Of a stretch of DNA of 16,740 nucleotides, positions 371 to 11,077 are shown piece after piece. The position numbers and the translations under genes are program-made. Each line of letters starts with the position of its first letter. The first letter of the stretch is position 1. Under the pieces are notes generated by a model. It saw only the letters and a program-made list of their open reading frames with translations, was not told the origin of the DNA and searched no databases. The DNA comes from a bacterium (GTDB lineage Bacteria > CSSED10-310 > JAJRTK01), in assembly GCA_024278345.1 (NCBI GenBank), contig JAJRTK010000187.1, forward strand, positions 1 through 16,740, in the 5' to 3' direction.

Positions 371-381
371 ATGAAATTTGA
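199..381 (+). CDS. Doubtful small ORF upstream of DUF4159 gene
   Basis: A 60-codon frame starts at GTG with a GAGG-like element a few bases upstream. It ends 11 nt inside the next gene, an overlap that could permit coupling. The product resembles no family I know, and its C-terminal third is a translation of the dispersed repeat that lies at 313-354, which argues against a conserved protein. It is listed only because start, Shine-Dalgarno-like element and overlap are compatible with expression. It is more likely a chance frame in an intergenic region. Confidence 0.15.
   Translation: MATPKTEKRISGSSVDERTPGWFFFGLWPGMAGRTVEGWERLRAAREERNTKLGSDTDEI
313..354 (-). repeat. Dispersed GC-rich intergenic repeat, copy R1
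   Basis: Read on the minus strand, this 42-bp stretch begins CTTTGTGTTGCGTTCC and ends GCAGCCGCTCCCA. By eye it matches copy R3 (7739-7788) at about 33 of 40 positions. It shares the 13-base run CTTTGTGTTGCGT with copy R2 (4733-4785). It is in the opposite orientation to the other two copies and just upstream of the DUF4159 start. All three copies lie outside recognisable genes. Family and function are unknown. Confidence 0.7.
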
Positions 382-1066
382 CGTTGAAAACCGGAAACAC
401 CGGAGTTTCCCTTTCTTTCTTGGGATTTTGCTGGTTTTGCCTTGGTGGATGGCCGTTCCGCGGATCGTGGGAGCGGAGCCGTTCGAGATCGCTCGGTTAC
501 GCTATGATGGTGGAGGGGACTGGTATTCTGACCCGTCGAGTGTGCCGAATCTTTTGCGGGAGCTTTCTAGGCGATTGGGGATTGACGTGGCTCCCAAGGA
601 GGCGGTGGTCTCTTTGGAGGAACCGGAGCTCTTTCGCTACCCTTATCTTTACTTGACGGGGCACGGGAACATCCGTTTTTCGGAGCGGGAGTTGGAAAAC
701 TTGCGCCGTTATCTTGCGTCGGGCGGTTTTTTGCATGCGGATGACAACTACGGAATGGATGAGTCTTTTAGAAGAGAGATGTCGCGCCTTTACCCCGATG
801 CCAAGCTGGAGGCCATCGATTCTGGCCATTTGATTTATAGGATGTTCTATCGGCTGCCAGGTTTGCCCAAGGTCCACGAGCACGACGGTCTTCCGGCGCA
901 GGGTTACGGGATTTGGCGCGGTGGGAGGTTGGTGGTTTTTTACAGCTATCAGTCGGATTTGGGTGATGGCTGGGAGAGCCCGGAAGTTCATGGCGATCCG
1001 CCGAAGGTGCGGGAGGCCGCGCTTCAGATGGGCGTTAACCTGGTGCTTTATTCGCTTTTGCACTGA
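371..1066 (+). CDS. Exported DUF4159 domain protein
   Basis: This 231-residue protein matches the DUF4159 family (function unknown). Residues 1-35 form a Sec signal peptide: a charged start, a hydrophobic core (about 13-29) and a V-G-A cleavage site before E36, so it should be exported. The mature part has family hallmarks: ARLRYDGGGDWY near its start, YLYLTGHGNIRFSERE, and LRRYLASGGFLHADDNYGMD in the middle. The fold resembles glutamine-amidotransferase-like domains, but I see no assured catalytic site. In other genomes such genes accompany MoxR ATPases, DUF58 and vWA proteins. Here the next gene encodes a DUF4175-type protein, which supports the assignment. The Shine-Dalgarno sequence before the ATG is weak. 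The start is chosen because it leaves a well-formed signal peptide. Confidence 0.88.
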   Translation: MKFDVENRKHRSFPFFLGILLVLPWWMAVPRIVGAEPFEIARLRYDGGGDWYSDPSSVPNLLRELSRRLGIDVAPKEAVVSLEEPELFRYPYLYLTGHGNIRFSERELENLRRYLASGGFLHADDNYGMDESFRREMSRLYPDAKLEAIDSGHLIYRMFYRLPGLPKVHEHDGLPAQGYGIWRGGRLVVFYSYQSDLGDGWESPEVHGDPPKVREAALQMGVNLVLYSLLH

Positions 1067-1156: not shown

Positions 1157-4100
1157 GTGATGTCTAGAAAACGGGATTTAGAGGGTCTTCTTCGACTTCT
1201 TTCCAATGCCAGGCTGCGGGTCTGGGCGTCGTTGGTCTTGGAGTTCGTGCTCCTTGTACTGGGTACCGCGGCGTTTTTGGCCTCGGGGATCTATGGTGCC
1301 TGGGCGCTTGGTTGGGCGCCTCAGGTGGGCGTTGTGGCCGCGCTTTTACCGGCGGTGCTCTGGTGCTGGAAGAGTTTTGATTTCGTGCTGCTGCGCAGTT
1401 CCTGGTCGAATCGGGCATTCGTGCTGGAGTTTGAACGCGCGCACCGCTTGGAACGGGGCGAGCTCCTGAGCCCGTTGGAGATTGCACGGCGCCAGGAAGC
1501 GGGGGAGTGGGCAGGCGCTCCGAGCCTGGTAGACAGGGCGTTGTCCGAAGTTTCCCGGATGGTCGCGGAGATGCGGCGTCGGCCGTTTCAGCGGCATCGC
1601 TGGCGGGTCGTCGGTGGGTTTGCGTTGGCGGGCTTGCTGGTGGCCCTTTGCAGCGGGCTCGATGCTCCAGGTTTTCTAAGTGCCCAGTCGAGTTTGAGCG
1701 GTCCGCGGGCCTCGCTGGATGCGCGGTTGTGGGTGGGGCGAGACGTGGTGGCTCGTGGGGAGACAGCAAATGTTTTTGTCCGGCGTCTCGTGCCGGGAGA
1801 TGCGCCGCTGATCCTCCTCCTGGCGCCGGCCGGATCGGAGGAGGGCGAATCAGTTTGGGATTCGAGGCTCGTGGAAGAGTTGGCTGGGGAGGGCCAGGTT
1901 CGGGATCGGCCGCTTTTTTTCACGAGGATTGGCCCGATGTCCGGCTCCGTCAGGTTGAAAGTCTCCTCTGGTTCCTTCGTTTCGGATGTCTACAAGGTGA
2001 AAGTGGCCTCTCGGCCGGTGATCGGGCGGTTTCTGGTGGAGGTCGATCCGCCCCCCTACTTGGAGATGGACAAGCAGCGAGTCGAGCGAACGGATGGGAA
2101 CTTGCGAGTCCCGAGGGGAAGCCGGGTTCGGATCGAGCTCGGCGTGGACCAGCCGCTGGCTTCCGCCAGGTTCTTCATGGGGAAGGAGAGGAAGATCCAG
2201 GTGCTCCGGCCCTTGCCACCGTCGGAGCAGTGGCCACGGGGAGGCTTCTTCGGGGAGTTGGAGGTCACCGAAGACTTGGACTACGAAATCCAGGTTACAA
2301 GCATCGATGGCTTGGCGAATCGGCCCGTACGCTACCATCTGGCGGCGGTAGCCGATGAACCTCCCGTCGTCCGGATCTTGAAGCCTGGCCGGGACCTGAC
2401 CATGGGCGAAGAGCAACAGGTCCACCTGAGGCTTCTTGCCAGAGACGATCACCGGATCGATCGGATGGCGCTATTTTACCGCATTGATGATGACGAGGAG
2501 CAGTCGTTCGAGCTTCCCGCTGAGCGTAGCTCCACGCTGAAGTTCGACTATTTGTGGAACCTCGCGGGGTTGGGCCTTTCGTTCGAGCAAGAGGTCCAAT
2601 ACTACGTTTCCGTCTGGGACAACGATGTTTTGCAGGGGCCCAAGCGCGGCGTCTCGGCCACTTACCGGCTACGCTATCCGTCATTCCTGGAGCTCTTCGA
2701 GGAATCGCGGGAGGAGCAATCAGAGCAGATTGAGGATGTCAGCGACATCCTGGAAAAACAGCGCCGGGTGGTGGAGCAATTGGAACGGTTGGCGGAAGAT
2801 GCCGATCCGGGGGATTCGCTGGACTGGAAGGAATCTGAGGCTCTCACCGACCTGCTCCAGCAGCAGGAAAAACTCAAGGAACGCGCCCAAGAAATTGCAA
2901 AACAGTTGCGCCAGAAGGCCGAGCAACTTGAAAAAGAGGCCACGGAGTCGGCCGAGGTCGTCGAAAAAATGCAGGAGATTTCCAAACTGTTCGACGAATT
3001 GGCGGACGAACAGATGGAGGAGCTTCTGGAGAAAATCCGCCAAACCATGGAAGAGCTGAAACTGACTCCAGAGGAGCTTGCGGAGCTCCAGGACGGCATG
3101 ACTAACGAGCAGCTCCTGCGGGGGCTTGACCGGACCCTGGAGCTGTTGCGCCGCCTGGAAGCGGAGCGCAAGCTCGAGGCCGTCTCCAAGCTTGCCGAGC
3201 ATCTTGCGGAACGGGAGCTTGAGCTGGGCCGGAGAAGCGAGGAGCTCCAGCGGAAAGAGGAAGGGGATTCCGAAAAGAGGGATCCGCGGGAAAAGGGCGA
3301 TTCCTCCAAGGGACAGACGGATTCTGGTGAAACGCCGGAGAAACCTGCTTCAGAGTCGGACGAAAATGCAGAGAAGGAGGCGTCGAAGAGCGCGGAGGAT
3401 AAACTTCGAGAGGCGGAGGAACTTGCAGCGAAACAGCAGCGCCTGGCGGAAGATCTGGAAGAACTGGAGTCAGAATTGGCGGACCTCCAGGACGAGGAGG
3501 CTCTGGAGCGTTTGAAAGAGGAGCTGGAAAAGCTAGAGCAGGAGCTGGGCGACCCGTCGGAGGAGGCAAGACGAGCGGATGACCGACTTCGGAAACAGAA
3601 GTTCGACGAGGCCGCCAAGATCCAGATCCCTCTGGGCAAGCGGCTCCAGGGGTTGGCCGGAAGTCTCGGACGAATGGCCATGCAGATGAGGGGCATGGAC
3701 AAGGCGGAAATCCTCGCGCTCGTTGAAGAGCTGGTCCAGGAATTGTCCTCAGAGCTCCGGTGGCTTGACAGGCTTCGCCGCCGTTCTTTGAAGGTCGCGG
3801 ATGTCACTCATTTTTCCATGCTGAGTGGGGCACAAAAGCAGACCATCGGCGAAGTTGCCAAGGGTGGAGAGCTGGTCCACCGGACGGCGTCGCTCCTGTT
3901 GGAGCGGATCGTCGATTTGGGGAAGATGACTCCCCAGCTTTCCAGTCTCGTGGCAACAGAGATGGAGGCTGCTGAAAAAGCGCTCAAACAGGCTGAAGGA
4001 AGCATCGAAAACCTTTCGATGGGCGCAGCCGCGACCCGATTTTTGGAGGCTCGGGTGAGGCTCCACGAGGCGGCTATGGCCCTTTTGAGCCTCAATGACG

Positions 4101-4666
4101 CCATGAACCAGGGGATGCCATCGGCGGGGCAGTCCCTCCGGGAGTCTTTGGAGAACCTGGCGGAAGAACAGCGCCGCCTTGCCGAGTCGCTTCGCCGTGG
4201 TGGGAGTCAAGAGGGAATGGTGCCCATGCCCATGCCTCGCTCCATGGAGCAGATGGCGAAGGAGCAGGGAAGAATTCGCCGGCAGCTCCAGAAGTTGCAA
4301 AAGGAGTTCGAGGCGTTGCAGGGGGGAATGGGAAGTCTGGAGGGCCTGGACGACGAGATGAGAGAACTGGAACGCCACTTGAGCGAAGGAGCCCTGAAGC
4401 CGGAGATCGCGGAAAGGCAGGAGAAGATCCTCGACAAGCTGTTGGAGGCCGAGCGGTCCTTGAGGGAAAGGAAACTCTCGCCGGAGCGCCAGTCCAAGAC
4501 CGCCAAGGAACAGGCTCCCTTTCAGGCGCGGTCCCCGGAGAAGCCCAAGGAATTGTGGGAACGGCAGCTCGAAGGTCTTCTTGAGGATCAGGAATCGGAG
4601 CTTTCACCCGAAGAGCGCTCGATTCTGGAACAGTTTTATTTGCGCCTCGCCCAGGAAGAGCCATGA
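1157..4666 (+). CDS. Large membrane-anchored coiled-coil protein, DUF4175-type
   Basis: This protein of about 1169 residues has two N-terminal membrane helices (about 21-45 and 55-75) and a third at about 151-168. A beta-rich, probably extracytoplasmic region follows (about 175-510). Next comes a very long Glu/Arg/Lys/Leu coiled coil (about 515-870), broken by a Ser/Lys/Glu/Asp-rich linker around 698-752. A second helical, Glu/Met-rich region runs to the end. Architecture and size, together with the adjacent DUF4159 gene, fit DUF4175 family proteins, whose function is unknown. A structural or scaffolding role in the envelope is inference. GTG at 1157 is directly followed by ATG at 1160; either could start, and the upstream Shine-Dalgarno is poor. 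The TGA stop overlaps an ATG at 4663 (ATGA). Family assignment is moderately sure; the membrane and coiled-coil layout is clear. Confidence 0.72.
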   Translation: MMSRKRDLEGLLRLLSNARLRVWASLVLEFVLLVLGTAAFLASGIYGAWALGWAPQVGVVAALLPAVLWCWKSFDFVLLRSSWSNRAFVLEFERAHRLERGELLSPLEIARRQEAGEWAGAPSLVDRALSEVSRMVAEMRRRPFQRHRWRVVGGFALAGLLVALCSGLDAPGFLSAQSSLSGPRASLDARLWVGRDVVARGETANVFVRRLVPGDAPLILLLAPAGSEEGESVWDSRLVEELAGEGQVRDRPLFFTRIGPMSGSVRLKVSSGSFVSDVYKVKVASRPVIGRFLVEVDPPPYLEMDKQRVERTDGNLRVPRGSRVRIELGVDQPLASARFFMGKERKIQVLRPLPPSEQWPRGGFFGELEVTEDLDYEIQVTSIDGLANRPVRYHLAAVADEPPVVRILKPGRDLTMGEEQQVHLRLLARDDHRIDRMALFYRIDDDEEQSFELPAERSSTLKFDYLWNLAGLGLSFEQEVQYYVSVWDNDVLQGPKRGVSATYRLRYPSFLELFEESREEQSEQIEDVSDILEKQRRVVEQLERLAEDADPGDSLDWKESEALTDLLQQQEKLKERAQEIAKQLRQKAEQLEKEATESAEVVEKMQEISKLFDELADEQMEELLEKIRQTMEELKLTPEELAELQDGMTNEQLLRGLDRTLELLRRLEAERKLEAVSKLAEHLAERELELGRRSEELQRKEEGDSEKRDPREKGDSSKGQTDSGETPEKPASESDENAEKEASKSAEDKLREAEELAAKQQRLAEDLEELESELADLQDEEALERLKEELEKLEQELGDPSEEARRADDRLRKQKFDEAAKIQIPLGKRLQGLAGSLGRMAMQMRGMDKAEILALVEELVQELSSELRWLDRLRRRSLKVADVTHFSMLSGAQKQTIGEVAKGGELVHRTASLLLERIVDLGKMTPQLSSLVATEMEAAEKALKQAEGSIENLSMGAAATRFLEARVRLHEAAMALLSLNDAMNQGMPSAGQSLRESLENLAEEQRRLAESLRRGGSQEGMVPMPMPRSMEQMAKEQGRIRRQLQKLQKEFEALQGGMGSLEGLDDEMRELERHLSEGALKPEIAERQEKILDKLLEAERSLRERKLSPERQSKTAKEQAPFQARSPEKPKELWERQLEGLLEDQESELSPEERSILEQFYLRLAQEEP

Positions 4667-4671
4667 GCCGA
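4651..4671 (+). repeat. Left imperfect direct repeat at the DUF4175/TPR junction
   Basis: This 21-nt segment contains AGGA, a six-base spacer and CCATGAGCCGA. It aligns with 4871-4892 at 19 of 22 positions (one gap, two substitutions). Each copy carries a Shine-Dalgarno sequence and an ATGA stop/start overlap. The two copies bound about 220 bp that include repeat R2. A duplicated insertion target or a duplicated gene junction would explain this. Confidence 0.6.
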
Positions 4672-4887
4672 GCACCGAACAGCGGATCCTGCTCTTTGCC
4701 TTGGTCGCGGTTTTCGGTAAACTCTTTGTTTCCTTTGTGTTGCGTCCCGCTCCCATCGGCGGCAGTCCGTCCGCCGCTGCTCGCCAATGTCGCCGCTCTT
4801 CTCATCCAGTGCCCGAAGACCGAAGCACCACCGAGCACCGTGACGCTGACCTGCCTGGATTTGCCACTTGCCAAGGAAAAACCATGA
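4663..4887 (+). CDS. Small coupled ORF, possibly created by an insertion
   Basis: This 74-codon frame has good translation signals: AGGA six bases before the ATG, an ATGA overlap with the upstream stop, and an ATGA overlap with the start of the TPR gene. The product is Pro/Ser/Cys-rich, mildly hydrophobic in the middle, and resembles no family I know. Its central part is a translation of dispersed repeat R2, and its start and stop both lie in the flanking direct repeats. It is therefore more likely a by-product of an insertion that copied the original junction than an old gene. It may still be translated and may serve to pass ribosomes on to the TPR gene. Confidence 0.3.
   Translation: MSRAPNSGSCSLPWSRFSVNSLFPLCCVPLPSAAVRPPLLANVAALLIQCPKTEAPPSTVTLTCLDLPLAKEKP
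4733..4785 (+). repeat. Dispersed GC-rich intergenic repeat, copy R2
   Basis: This is the middle copy of the short repeat. It begins CTTTGTGTTGCGTCCCGCTC and ends CCGCTGCTCGCC. The first 13 bases are identical to R1 read in reverse, and the first 24 or so match R3 at about 19 positions. Its right half is the most diverged of the three copies. It sits inside the segment bounded by the direct repeats at 4651-4671 and 4871-4892, between two co-oriented genes. Confidence 0.6.
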
Positions 4888-4892
4888 GCCGA
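4871..4892 (+). repeat. Right imperfect direct repeat, carrying the TPR gene start
   Basis: This 22-nt counterpart of 4651-4671 contains AAGGA, a six-base spacer and the ATG at 4884 that starts the TPR gene. The final CCATGAGCCGA is identical in both copies. It supplies the Shine-Dalgarno sequence and start codon of the downstream signal peptide, so this copy is functional. Confidence 0.6.
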
Positions 4893-7217
4893 AGAGTGAG
4901 AACCACGACCCTGGCCTGCCTGACTCTCGTTGGGTTCTTTGGGGTTTCTTCGTGGGAAGGAGAAGCCGGCGCCCGGCAGCCGGATCTGTGTAAAAAACAG
5001 GTGCGCCAAGCGCGGCGCCTGCTCCTGAACGGGGAGGCGGAGTCGGCGATTGAGCAGCTTGCGGGGCTTTTGGAGCGTTCCGGACTCACGGGATCTTGTC
5101 GTGGCGACGCGCTCCAGGTCTTGGCACAGGCGGAAGAGAGGCTGGGCCGCTTCGAAGAAGCCATCGAGCAATGGCGGGCATTGTTGGAACGGCAGCCGAA
5201 AGGCCGGAAGCGGGAAGACGTGCTTGAGGGAGTGGCGCGGGTTGCTCGGAAGCTCGGTCGCCCCGAAGAGAGCCTCAAAGCCCTGGAGGAGCTTGCCCGC
5301 TTGAAGCCACGATCCATTCGGGTCGTGCTGCAGGTTATCCAGAGTTACCGGGAGATGGGGGACGATCTGGGAGCCGCGAAGCGCCTGGTGGAGTTTCGAA
5401 GCGCAAGGCCGGATATCGTGGAGTTCGAGTACTATTCTCGATTGCGGTTGGGGAGAGAAGCCACGCGGTACCTCGAAATCTTGGATGAGGCCGGACAAGC
5501 GTCGGAGTTCGAGCTTATCGAGCTGTCGCGGTTACAGTTCTCTTTTGGGGATCGCGAAGCCTCTTTGAAAACAGCTCTTGCTCTTCAGAAGGGGAACCCG
5601 GATTCGTCTGAGATCCAGGCGCTCGTAGGGAGTCTTCGCCTCATGCGCGGCGAGCTGGATTTGGCCATGGAGAGCTACGAGCGCTCCCTCGATCAAGGGG
5701 GAGATTCGAATCCGGATTTCGTGGAGGGACTCGGGGAGATCTTCTTCCGGCGAGGAGATCGAAAAAAGGCGATCCAGATCTGGCGGCGGATGGGTCCTAA
5801 GACGGAGGGTCGCGCTTTTCAAAAACTCCGGCTGGTGAGGATCTATCGGGATCATGGCCTCCATGACGAAGCCCTGGCGCTGCTCCTTGAGCTCAAGAAG
5901 GAGAAGAGTGGCAAATTGCCGCCCAGCCTCTTTCTTCGGCAGCTTGCCGATACCTACTACATCGTGGGCAAGCCAAGGACGGCCTTGGCAGAGCTTGTGG
6001 AGATGGCCGAGGCCAACCCGCTTCAACTCGATATCGCCAAGGTAGAGCTTCAAAGGATGCTCTCGGAGGAAATGTCCCTCTGCGAATTACTGGAGGAGGT
6101 CGTCTCAGGCGCCAAGACGGCAGCCGGCTACACTCTGCTTGCCGGTGGCTTGGAGTTTTGCGGCAAAAACTTTGCCGCGACCCGCTGCGCTTTGAAAGGC
6201 GATCTCCTTCTCAATCGCATTTCGGCCATTGAATCGCTTTTTTCCAAGCTCGTTACCGAGGAGCGATTCGAGGAAGCCGCATGGCTCGAACAGCGGTTGC
6301 TCCAGGCTCGGACGCCCAGCGTCCATTTGAGCTATTTCCGCGGCCGATTGGCTCAGGTCACCAACCGTCCCCAAGAAGCCGATGCTTTCTATCGTTCCTA
6401 CCTGGCGGCTGCCCGTGGGCTGAACCGGGGCCTTGATCGTGGGCTTGTGGACGACGCGCTCTACCATTTGGCGGAGCTTGCCATCGGTCCTTTGGGGCAA
6501 CCCGCTCAGGGGCGGCGACGCCTCATGCAACTCGTGGTAGACCATCCCTACAGCACTTATCGGCCTGCGGCCGAAGCGAAAATCGGGTTGGCCCTCTATC
6601 GCCAGGGGCGAACGGAAGAGGCGCTTCGGCATCTCGATGCCCTGGGCGACACCAACCCGTTGGCGCTCCAACTTCTGGGGGAGATAGCCCTCGCGGAAGG
6701 CGATTTCCAACAGGCGCGAGTCACCCTCCGCCAAGCACTTTCCGATTATCCCGAACAAGAGGACTCCTGGAAGGGCATCCAGAGCCTCTTGACGGTCCTG
6801 CGCCTCAGTCAGGGGGATGACGCGGAGAAAACTCTCGTCGCCGAGTACCGGAAGGTTCTGCTCCTAGGGGCGACTGCGACCGCCGAGCTTCCTCTCCAGA
6901 GGTTGACTGCTTCGAAGACCTGGGGCGACTTTGCCCGATCTGAGCTTGCCCGCCTGTACGCCAACCAGGGGCGGATGGTGGAGGCCGCTTCCCTCTATGC
7001 TCTTCTTTGTAGCACCCATGGGCCAGGTTGGCTTGCCACCAACGCGGCCCTCGAGCTTTCGAAGATTCTGGTGACCCAAGGGCGTGGTCTTGATGCGATT
7101 CACGTCCTGGAGCAGGCGATTCTTGACCAGCCGGAAAGCCCTAAGCTCCCGCAGCTCAGGCATGAGCTCGAGCAATTGCGGAAAGCCGAACCCCCTCCGC
7201 GGGAGCTTCTTCCGTAA
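4884..7217 (+). CDS. Exported tetratricopeptide-repeat protein
   Basis: This 777-residue protein is built almost wholly of TPR-like helical pairs. Examples are the motif around residues 76-105 (ALQVLAQAEERLGRFEEAIE) and one near 597-625 (LLGEIALAEGDFQQARVTL). TPR arrays act as protein-binding scaffolds. The frame is open further left to 4581, but 4884 is preferred: it has AAGGA six bases upstream and opens a signal peptide (charged MSRRVR, hydrophobic core, A-G-A before R31). Translation from 4581 would bury that signal. The gene is last but one in the DUF4159/DUF4175 cluster, so its partner is plausibly the coiled-coil protein, though this is inference. No enzymatic domain was seen. The partner and exact repeat number are unknown. 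Confidence 0.85.
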   Translation: MSRRVRTTTLACLTLVGFFGVSSWEGEAGARQPDLCKKQVRQARRLLLNGEAESAIEQLAGLLERSGLTGSCRGDALQVLAQAEERLGRFEEAIEQWRALLERQPKGRKREDVLEGVARVARKLGRPEESLKALEELARLKPRSIRVVLQVIQSYREMGDDLGAAKRLVEFRSARPDIVEFEYYSRLRLGREATRYLEILDEAGQASEFELIELSRLQFSFGDREASLKTALALQKGNPDSSEIQALVGSLRLMRGELDLAMESYERSLDQGGDSNPDFVEGLGEIFFRRGDRKKAIQIWRRMGPKTEGRAFQKLRLVRIYRDHGLHDEALALLLELKKEKSGKLPPSLFLRQLADTYYIVGKPRTALAELVEMAEANPLQLDIAKVELQRMLSEEMSLCELLEEVVSGAKTAAGYTLLAGGLEFCGKNFAATRCALKGDLLLNRISAIESLFSKLVTEERFEEAAWLEQRLLQARTPSVHLSYFRGRLAQVTNRPQEADAFYRSYLAAARGLNRGLDRGLVDDALYHLAELAIGPLGQPAQGRRRLMQLVVDHPYSTYRPAAEAKIGLALYRQGRTEEALRHLDALGDTNPLALQLLGEIALAEGDFQQARVTLRQALSDYPEQEDSWKGIQSLLTVLRLSQGDDAEKTLVAEYRKVLLLGATATAELPLQRLTASKTWGDFARSELARLYANQGRMVEAASLYALLCSTHGPGWLATNAALELSKILVTQGRGLDAIHVLEQAILDQPESPKLPQLRHELEQLRKAEPPPRELLP

Positions 7218-7700: not shown

Positions 7701-7738
7701 CCTGCTGGTGCCGGTACGGGTTTGCTGAGGAGGCTTTT

Positions 7739-7788
7739 CTTGGGTTGCGTTCCGCTCTTGTCGCTCGCGGCCGCTCCCGCCACTCGCC
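7739..7788 (+). repeat. Dispersed GC-rich intergenic repeat, copy R3
   Basis: This copy lies just past the 3' end of the HD hydrolase gene. It begins CTTGGGTTGCGTTCCGCTC and ends CCCGCCACTCGCC, with an internal GCGGCCGC palindrome. It matches R1 (reverse orientation) at about 33 of 40 positions by eye. It is the most regular of the three copies and sits between convergent genes. Confidence 0.7.
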
Positions 7789-7827
7789 TTTGTCTCCGCA
7801 AAAACAAGTTGAGCTATCGTGATGAAC

Positions 7828-8286: not shown

Positions 8287-10221
8287 CTATGGGAGGATTG
8301 ATCTCAGAAAGGGGGCCAGGGCGGTTCCGGCAACCCGGGTGTCTCCTTGTCGGCGGGTGAGGCAGAGGCCGTCGGTCAGCTCGAAGAACGGGATACAGAA
8401 CTTCCGGGTCCATCCGGTTTTTTCCCTAAGCTGGGCAATTCCCATACCCTCTGGAGTTTGGAGGTCATTCTGACACTGCGCCAGGAGCTTTGCCAGAAAG
8501 CTCTGTTCAGTGAAGGCCCCGCTCCCAAGGCGAAGGAAGATTTTGTTGTCCACGAGGTAATCCAAGAGCTCGGTGGGTTCGTGCCCGAGCTCTTCCAGTT
8601 GGCCAAGAAGCTCCTCTTCCCGGATGATCCCTTTTTTTTCCAAGCGTTTGATCAATTCCTGCAACCGCAGTTCGGTTTCGGGAGTGACGCTTGCCATGAA
8701 GCCCGGCATTCGGCAGAAGGCCCCGTCCAGGACGATTCGCTTCCCTTCTTGTAGATCGGCTAACAGAGCTTGAAACATTTTTGGCGAGTTCCGTTCCAAT
8801 AGACCCACCCGCAGTTTCTCCGGCCGCACTCCAGGTTTCAGCGGCCATCGCTCATGGTGAGCTTCGAGCTGCTTCAGGAGGCTCGTCTCCATTTCCCGGA
8901 AAAGGCGCTCCTCCACAAGGAACTCGTCTCCAAGGCGTCGCAGCCCGGAGACCGGAGTCGCCGGCTCGAACTCCAGCCCCCGCCGAGCGGCTTCAGTCTC
9001 GACGGCGCCGATCTCGACGCCATCAACACCCATCCTGGATGCCATGGCCTGAGCCAGGGACTCCGGGGTGGAGAGCTCGAACTTTCGTAGAATATCGATT
9101 TCCTTGGCGTTGGCGGCCGCGAGCTTCTGGGCCGGAGCCTCCACAACGATTCCGCCGCCAAGGGTCAAGGCTGGCGAGTACCGGCGCAGTATCAGCCTTT
9201 GGCCAGCCACGGCGACGCTGGGTGATTCCAGGCGAAGCTGAACAAAACCGCTCTCTCCTGGCTTCAGAATTGCCGGTTCGAGAGGCATCACCCGAGCAAA
9301 GAGTTCCGCGGCTCCAACGTGAACCCGCACGCGAGTTCTACGCTCTAAGAAGATAGGGGAGCTTTCCAGGACATGGATCCTGGCGTTGAGGATGGAAGTA
9401 GTTTCTAGCGCCCCGGGGAGGGTCACGATATCGCCCCGGTGGATCTCCTCGGCGGAGACACCATGGAGCTTCATCGCCGTCCGTTGTCCGGGCCCGCTCT
9501 CTTCCACGGTGCCGCCGTGTGTTTGGAGTTCCCGGATTCGCCCTTTGAGTTTCGAGGGCAAGATCTCTACGGCCATCCCCTTGCGAAAACGTCCCGCCGC
9601 CTGTGTTCCCGTGACGATGGTGCCGTGGCCGGCAAGGACGAAGCAGCGGTCGATGGAGAGCCGCGGGATCCGCCCGCCGCGGCGGGGCGGCAATGAACGG
9701 GTTTCTTCCACCAGGGCCCGGGAGAGGGCGTCAAACCCTTCGCCAGTCCGGGAAGAAACCGCAAGGATGGTGGGAACGAGGCCAAGAGTGAGCTCGAAAA
9801 GTTCTTCGAGCTCCAACTGGACGATTTCAAGAAAATCCTCATCGACTCGATCGATCTTCGTGATGACCGGTATGATCCGGCGGATTCCCAGCAAACAGAG
9901 AATATCGAAGTGCTCGCGGCTCTGGGGCATGAGCCCTTCGTCGGCGGCGACGACGAAAAGAACAATGTCAATGCCGGTGGCGCCTGCCAGCATATTCTTG
10001 ACGAACTTTTCATGGCCCGGAACATCGACGAAGGAGATCCTCAAGCCCGGAACAGGCTCGAAATGGGCGAATCCCAGATCGATGGAGATGCCCCTCTCCT
10101 TTTCCGCTGGAAGGCGATCTGTGTCGATGCCGGTGAGCCGGTGGACGAGGGCGGTCTTTCCGTGGTCGATGTGGCCGGCTGTTCCCACCACCGCAACCAT
10201 CTCAGGTAGCAAGGAGCTCAT
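8287..10221 (-). CDS. selB: Selenocysteine-specific translation elongation factor SelB
   Basis: This GTPase of about 644 residues brings Sec-tRNA to UGA codons marked by a SECIS hairpin. G-domain motifs are GHIDHGKT (16-23), DVPGHE (66-71) and TKID (121-124), the last replacing the NKxD of EF-Tu as is usual in SelB. Beta-barrel domains with HGTIVTGT and a TLGGG segment follow. The last 250 or so residues are helical and winged-helix-like, the SECIS-binding part. The frame stays open 107 codons upstream inside parB, but those residues are Ser/Arg-rich out-of-frame translation. ATG 10221, 10 bp after the parB stop, gives the normal length. M8 (10200) is an alternative. No selA, selC or selenoprotein gene was seen here. 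Confidence 0.95.
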   Translation of the reverse strand: MSSLLPEMVAVVGTAGHIDHGKTALVHRLTGIDTDRLPAEKERGISIDLGFAHFEPVPGLRISFVDVPGHEKFVKNMLAGATGIDIVLFVVAADEGLMPQSREHFDILCLLGIRRIIPVITKIDRVDEDFLEIVQLELEELFELTLGLVPTILAVSSRTGEGFDALSRALVEETRSLPPRRGGRIPRLSIDRCFVLAGHGTIVTGTQAAGRFRKGMAVEILPSKLKGRIRELQTHGGTVEESGPGQRTAMKLHGVSAEEIHRGDIVTLPGALETTSILNARIHVLESSPIFLERRTRVRVHVGAAELFARVMPLEPAILKPGESGFVQLRLESPSVAVAGQRLILRRYSPALTLGGGIVVEAPAQKLAAANAKEIDILRKFELSTPESLAQAMASRMGVDGVEIGAVETEAARRGLEFEPATPVSGLRRLGDEFLVEERLFREMETSLLKQLEAHHERWPLKPGVRPEKLRVGLLERNSPKMFQALLADLQEGKRIVLDGAFCRMPGFMASVTPETELRLQELIKRLEKKGIIREEELLGQLEELGHEPTELLDYLVDNKIFLRLGSGAFTEQSFLAKLLAQCQNDLQTPEGMGIAQLREKTGWTRKFCIPFFELTDGLCLTRRQGDTRVAGTALAPFLRSILP

Positions 10222-10231
10222 CTGCGTCTCA

Positions 10232-11077
10232 TCAAGCTCGTTCCAGGCGCGACAGAAGGCTTTCGAACTCATCTTTCGAGGAATACTCGATGATGATTTT
10301 TCCCCGCTTGTAGGAGCCTCGGATGAAGGCTCTGGTTCCCAGGGCGCTTTCCAAGCGTTCTTCCACGGCGCTGAAGTGGACTCGGGAGCTTTGGCGGCCC
10401 TTGCTCGGTGGTTGAGCTTTGGCTTCCCCGAGCTCTTGGACAAGTTTCTCCGCCTGGCGGACGGAGAGTCCCTCCCGGGCGATCTTCGCCGCGAGGCGGC
10501 TTTGGAGCTCTGGCTCACCGAGCCCCGACAAAGCGCGGGCATGGCCCATGGAGAGCAGGCCGTTCTGGAGCTTCTCCTTGACGTTTGCCGGTAGGTCCAG
10601 GAGCCGGAGGTAGTTGGTCACCGAACTCCGCTTTTTGCCCACCAGCTCCGCGACCTTTTCTTGGGTGAGTTTTTTGCGTTTGACAAGTAGGCTGTAGGCG
10701 AAAGCGATTTCCAGCGGTCCCAGATCCTTGCGCTGGAGGTTTTCCACCAGTGCCAGCTCGAGCCGGGTGTCATCGGGGTGATCGACTACCAGGGCGGGGA
10801 CGGTCTCCTTCTTCGCCTGCATCGAGGCCCGCCATCTTCGCTCACCCACGATGAGTTCGTAACGCGTTCCCTTGGCCCGGACGAGGATCGGCTGAAGGAC
10901 TCCCTGTTTTGCCACGGAGCGGGCAAGCTCCTCGAGGCTCTCCCTGGAAAACAGCTTTCGCGGCTGATCCGGATTGGGATCGATCTCATCGAGGGGGATT
11001 TCTTGGACGCGATTTCGGTTGTCTGCAGGCGGGAGCAGGGATTCGAAGCCGCGTCCCAAAGCTTTACGTCGAGCCAT
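10232..11077 (-). CDS. parB: Chromosome-partitioning protein ParB
   Basis: This 281-residue protein is a chromosomal ParB/Spo0J: it binds parS sites near the origin, spreads as a CTP-dependent clamp and works with ParA. The N-terminus ARRKALGRGFESLL is the usual ParA-interacting segment. The ParB/CTPase region includes NPDQPRK (35-41) and GERRWRA (78-84), part of the nucleotide-binding site. The central helix-turn-helix contains LTQEKVAELVGKKRSSV, followed by a GHARAL motif. A short C-terminal dimerisation domain ends the protein. The start overlaps the parA end by 14 nt, implying coupled translation. No parS palindrome was found by eye in the window. Confidence 0.97.
   Translation of the reverse strand: MARRKALGRGFESLLPPADNRNRVQEIPLDEIDPNPDQPRKLFSRESLEELARSVAKQGVLQPILVRAKGTRYELIVGERRWRASMQAKKETVPALVVDHPDDTRLELALVENLQRKDLGPLEIAFAYSLLVKRKKLTQEKVAELVGKKRSSVTNYLRLLDLPANVKEKLQNGLLSMGHARALSGLGEPELQSRLAAKIAREGLSVRQAEKLVQELGEAKAQPPSKGRQSSRVHFSAVEERLESALGTRAFIRGSYKRGKIIIEYSSKDEFESLLSRLERA

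Follow-up and report, generated by a model that had tools for sequence, protein, structure and literature searches.

Probable origin of a 74-codon open reading frame from a tandemly duplicated stop/start overlap and a nested MITE

How does a small open reading frame (ORF) come to lie between two operon genes and to overlap each of them by the same four nucleotides? We addressed this question in a 16,740-nt stretch of bacterial DNA (the window, meaning the whole stretch analysed), in which a 74-codon ORF separates a DUF4175-like gene from a TPR gene. Our best overall explanation, to which we assign a probability of roughly 0.8, combines a 65-bp tandem duplication of the gene junction and a later MITE insertion with an ORF that would serve as a translated bridge between its neighbours.

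The duplicated gene junction

The features of the locus that enter the argument are the following (TSD, target-site duplication):

371–1066 (+): DUF4159 gene, 231 aa, upstream operon member (Pfam PF13709, E = 2.5e-66)
1157–4666 (+): DUF4175-like gene, 1169 aa; its TGA (4664–4666) overlaps the ATG at 4663
4638–4684 (+): first 47 nt of duplication copy 1 (DUF4175 tail and duplicated TPR start), from self-alignment at offset 65 after excision
4653–4656 (+): AGGA, Shine-Dalgarno-like motif of copy 1, from the sequence
4663–4887 (+): 74-codon chimeric ORF with a TPR-like head, MITE middle and DUF4175-tail-like end
4677–4684 (+): left TSD GAACAGCG, adjoining the family-defined element edge
4685–4832 (+): 148-bp MITE copy (profile match 112.9 bits, E = 7.5e-35, model positions 2–148)
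4833–4840 (+): right TSD GAGCACCG, adjoining the family-defined element edge
4841–4858 (+): last 18 nt of duplication copy 1, TGACGCTGACCTGCCTGG, aligning with TPR codons TTLACL at offset 65
4859–4923 (+): duplication copy 2 (duplicated DUF4175 tail and functional TPR start), from self-alignment
4874–4877 (+): AGGA, Shine-Dalgarno-like motif of copy 2, from the sequence
4884–7217 (+): TPR gene, 777 aa (Pfam TPR families, best E = 7.5e-25)

The DUF4175-like gene matched Pfam PF13779 just under the cut-off (E = 2.3e-6). In tblastn it also matched, with E values as low as 2e-33, genes of other phyla that occupy the DUF4175 position beside DUF4159. Elsewhere in the window, a gene for a SelB-like selenocysteine elongation factor (8287–10542, −) suggests that the organism makes selenoproteins.

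The initial annotation described two near-identical segments, one at the end of the DUF4175 gene and one at the start of the TPR gene, each carrying a Shine-Dalgarno sequence and ATGA; between them it placed a dispersed repeat and a 74-codon ORF coupled to both neighbours. All of this was borne out, the coupling in the sense of overlap. The DUF4175 stop segment GCCCAGGAAGAGCCATGAGCCG and the TPR start segment GCCAAGGAAAAACCATGAGCCG are identical at 19/22 positions at an offset of 221, and an unbiased repeat search widened the match to 34 nt (4638–4671 and 4859–4892, 28/34 identical, 82%). Its raw self-match score of 22 compares with a maximum of 16 among 1,500 control pieces from other parts of the window. 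AGGA stands 6 nt 5' of ATGA in both segments, and the stop/start overlaps fall at 4663–4666 and 4884–4887; both genes thus retain signals of their own, as had been proposed. Two features go beyond that description: a duplicated unit that spans 65 bp rather than 22, and a repeat that proves to be an entire MITE. We also asked whether the long perfectly conserved run around ATGAGCC points to selection and set the idea aside, since an 11-nt run arises by chance in 39% of shuffles.

A MITE family and an insertion nested in copy 1

The repeat belongs to a family found in at least 40 places in the window's genome by blastn and in at least 150 matches by profile search. Family alignment showed copies of 145–150 bp with sharp common edges (GGTCGTGCTCTTC... 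and ...GAAGCACCACC) forming an imperfect inverted pair, and it placed the element at 4685–4832 independently of the junction repeat. The element is short, multi-copy and sharp-ended and carries no transposase, as expected of a MITE; its imperfect terminal inverted repeats read GGTCGTGCTC...TTTTAGGGC on the left and, as reverse complement, GGTGGTGCTTC...TTAGGGC on the right. Direct repeats of a fixed 8 bp lie directly outside the edges of many family copies, with perfect 8/8 examples including CGAATTCT, GGAATCCT, CCAGTTCG, CGGATTTT, GGGAACCA and GATCTTCT. In the window copy, the two TSDs agree at 6/8 positions in this fixed register (chance approximately 0.006); the lack of a perfect match counts against the two-event account. 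Where it aligns with the family consensus the copy shows 86% identity, and its insertion is therefore not recent. An exact 8-mer of the right TSD at 4670–4677 was rejected as the left TSD because it lies 7 bp off the family-defined edge and gives a register lacking the longer duplication. A structured RNA in the segment was likewise rejected: folding was no better than in shuffles (z = −0.45), the covariation term was 0, and the sole Rfam match was to part of a group II intron, at 11–89 of the window (58 bits), likely an intron end cut by the contig start.

A rough inspection of some 35 further copies placed most of them between genes and few within co-directional pairs. Weak, partial and old-looking matches to the same family at 7733–7799 (+) and 270–355 (−), scoring 25 and 15 bits, explain why the repeat's core recurs elsewhere in the window. 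Longer variants of about 170 bp, which contain an additional hairpin-like internal segment, occur at two loci (L108:153–324 and L109); the right TSD in L108 is immediately followed by a second element-like end. The MITE was absent from the other genomes of a 60-genome search, including all seven other same-phylum genomes searched; its exact core had no match in the GTDB 220 genomes (from which the window's own genome was possibly left out), and we found no recorded relative of the sequence. Three contigs (C156, C187 and C549, at L104, L105 and L106) share an identical end of 114–139 bp, starting GGTGGTGCTC...TAGGGCA, that leads into an ORF start, MPSSKCEPREGEFQRWQP, before the contigs break off. 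From their sequence, these MITE-like ends are probably parts of an unassembled autonomous parent element. Its transposase was not found in the assembly, and among 290 genomes the parent end occurred only in the window's own. An ISL3 transposase encoded in the genome was rejected as the parent element, since its locus shows no matching end.

With the MITE in place, the same junction repeat appears at offsets 221 and 65, a difference of 156 that equals the element plus one TSD (148 + 8). Removing these 156 bp brought the junction copies to an offset of 65 with 64 ungapped nucleotides, 47/64 identical. This match covers one full period, and copy 1 (4638–4684 plus 4841–4858) directly abuts copy 2 (4859–4923), so that the excised sequence holds two adjacent full-length copies whose match length equals the period, as in a tandem duplication. 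Among 22 excision registers compared, only that given by the family edges extended the repeat from 34 to 64 nt, the others yielding 33–41 nt. The duplication score after excision was 30, a value reached by 0/4,000 control pieces, the best of which scored 16. Because the element sits inside copy 1, the duplication is older than the insertion. Taken as a reading of the sequence, a history in which the 65-bp tandem duplication came first and the MITE later entered copy 1 is very likely correct.

The steps of this history are as follows. A 65-bp segment across the DUF4175 stop and TPR start, with its 4-nt ATGA overlap, was duplicated in tandem. As 65 mod 3 = 2, the first ATG then read to the TGA of the second copy, creating a 22-codon ORF coupled at both ends. 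The 148-bp MITE inserted 22 nt past the first ATG with an 8-bp target duplication, and the additional 156 bp (156 mod 3 = 0) contributed 52 stop-free codons, giving the present 74. The ORF is composed accordingly of a head (MSR...TLTCL) matching the duplicated TPR start, a MITE middle, and a tail (LAKEKP*) matching the duplicated DUF4175 end, the original of which reads LAQEEP*. The origin of this small ORF is readable nearly base by base: the duplicated junction supplied the start, the stop and the ribosome-binding site, and the body came from a transposable element.

The junction in homologous operons

We compared the junction with homologous loci to establish its ancestral state. This comparison spans distant phyla; the nearest other genomes belong to the same phylum only, and those examined contained no recognisable DUF4175 homologue. 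The genomes searched included no close relative in which an empty site might be seen. A DUF4159 protein search returned 80 loci (L134–L213) from Gemmatimonadota, Neomarinimicrobiota, Krumholzibacteriota, Zixibacteriota and other groups, of which 51 contained a DUF4175 relative. Where enough sequence was available, the next long ORF could start overlapping the DUF4175 stop in 41/45 loci, 17 of the 41 having an exact 4-nt NTGA overlap; starts were read mechanically, and overlaps other than 4 nt are therefore less certain. Three of the remaining four loci had gaps and one lacked a long ORF. TPR matches were present in 7/8 of the next proteins tested downstream of DUF4175 homologues.

With 41/45 homologous operons overlapping, a single direct overlap is the usual state, in line with the prediction of the initial annotation. 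The proposal that one ancestral stop/start overlap was duplicated gains support from these operons, in which the two genes meet without the intervening segment. A different start for the TPR gene, in frame 0 through the element (an 878-aa extended TPR protein with a hydrophobic stretch), was rejected since the protein has a signal-peptide-like N-terminus, read from the sequence, at ATG 4884; it is further disfavoured by homologous TPR genes that can begin at the overlap. The DUF4159–DUF4175–TPR order with direct overlaps is kept across several phyla, and a single paper in the literature we searched mentions either DUF.

A possible translated bridge, its alternatives and known systems

Does the ORF do anything for its neighbours? 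Ribosomes ending DUF4175 would reinitiate at ATG 4663, read through the ORF to TGA 4885, and then reinitiate at the TPR ATG 4884. The ORF would thereby keep the two genes coupled despite an insertion expected to separate them. A gap of 38 nt lowers downstream reinitiation in E. coli by 80–90% or abolishes it (PMC10666635), so a 221-nt untranslated gap should uncouple TPR from DUF4175. Unlike an untranslated spacer, an ORF with an ATGA overlap to both neighbours can pass ribosomes on twice. Counting against this role, the GC content of the ORF by codon position differs from that of the genes, and the TPR gene has its own Shine-Dalgarno sequence and could start without coupling. We put about even odds on the ORF acting as a translated bridge from DUF4175 to TPR.

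The main rival to a bridge role, somewhat below even odds in our estimate, accepts the duplication and the MITE as real and takes the ORF to be neutral debris, not usefully translated, with TPR starting from its own Shine-Dalgarno sequence. The independent AGGA before ATG 4884 fits this account, as does the good fraction of cases in which the frame is open by chance: the same element frame is open in 18/33 family copies and stop-free in approximately 38% of neutral simulations, and the openness of the ORF is therefore not evidence of selection. Against it, both length changes fit coupling (1/3 × 1/3 before any requirement for no stop, though the case was picked for that), and the overlap is widely conserved elsewhere. 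Judged from its sequence, the ORF is most likely a young, non-conserved bridge that may sustain termination–reinitiation, and the 74-aa peptide itself is probably without function.

Much less probable is a single event, in which the junction was duplicated as the repeat came in, whether as a long target-site duplication or as a gap-repair product. The initial annotation had favoured this order of things, and the position of the repeat between the two junction copies invites it. That part of the proposal was not supported: the family makes TSDs of 8 bp, not approximately 65 bp, and only once the element and one 8-bp TSD are removed do the two copies adjoin at full length, which leaves the 65-bp duplication as a separate event with the element nested in copy 1.

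It is very improbable that the ORF is an ordinary conserved small gene, even though its frame is open and each end has an ATGA with a Shine-Dalgarno-like motif before it. It has no Pfam match, and its whole sequence is explained by the two duplicated ends and the MITE copy. Its GC content by codon position (0.55/0.59/0.64) is unlike that of the neighbouring genes (about 0.69/0.40–0.43/0.69–0.72), and the homologous operons lack an intervening gene. Least credible of all is a misjoin of contigs at a high-copy repeat: many contigs of the assembly do end in the MITE repeat, but sequence from both junction halves occurs on either side of the element, the TSDs flanking it match in register, the element copy is diverged, and DUF4175–TPR adjacency is normal in other phyla.

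The translated-bridge reading suggests how insertions into operons could be tolerated without uncoupling genes, and the two-event history suggests a simple, searchable rule for the rise of coupled small ORFs within them. As a speculative extension, small ORFs coupled at both ends from birth might commonly originate when a stop/start overlap is duplicated in tandem. Any stop-free period of 2 mod 3 would yield one, frame-compatible MITEs could then lengthen it, and such ORFs might persist by keeping ribosomes flowing downstream. A limited literature search returned no account of a small ORF that arose when the overlap itself was duplicated in tandem.

Several known systems share parts of this arrangement. 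Going by the title of Chen et al. 2008, which the review PMC10969869 cites, the Chunjie MITE is inserted in a Geobacter uraniireducens operon whose structure is undisturbed; as so described, it resembles our case in being a MITE inside an operon, whereas the insertion in the window lies in a duplicated stop/start overlap and lengthens a small coupled ORF. Rickettsia palindromic elements, ERIC and YAPL, of about 130–170 bp, have open frames that fuse in frame with host frames (PMC2229807, PMC10969869). They likewise produce new or altered ORFs by joining element frames to host frames; the window element differs in its distinct sequence, and the ends of its ORF derive from a duplicated gene junction. 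Finally, coupling by termination–reinitiation at ATGA is common (PMC6728339). Such gene pairs (PMC6728339, PMC10666635) show the same 4-nt overlap that occurs in the window at both ends of the ORF, but here a single ancestral overlap has given rise to two, which flank a new ORF.
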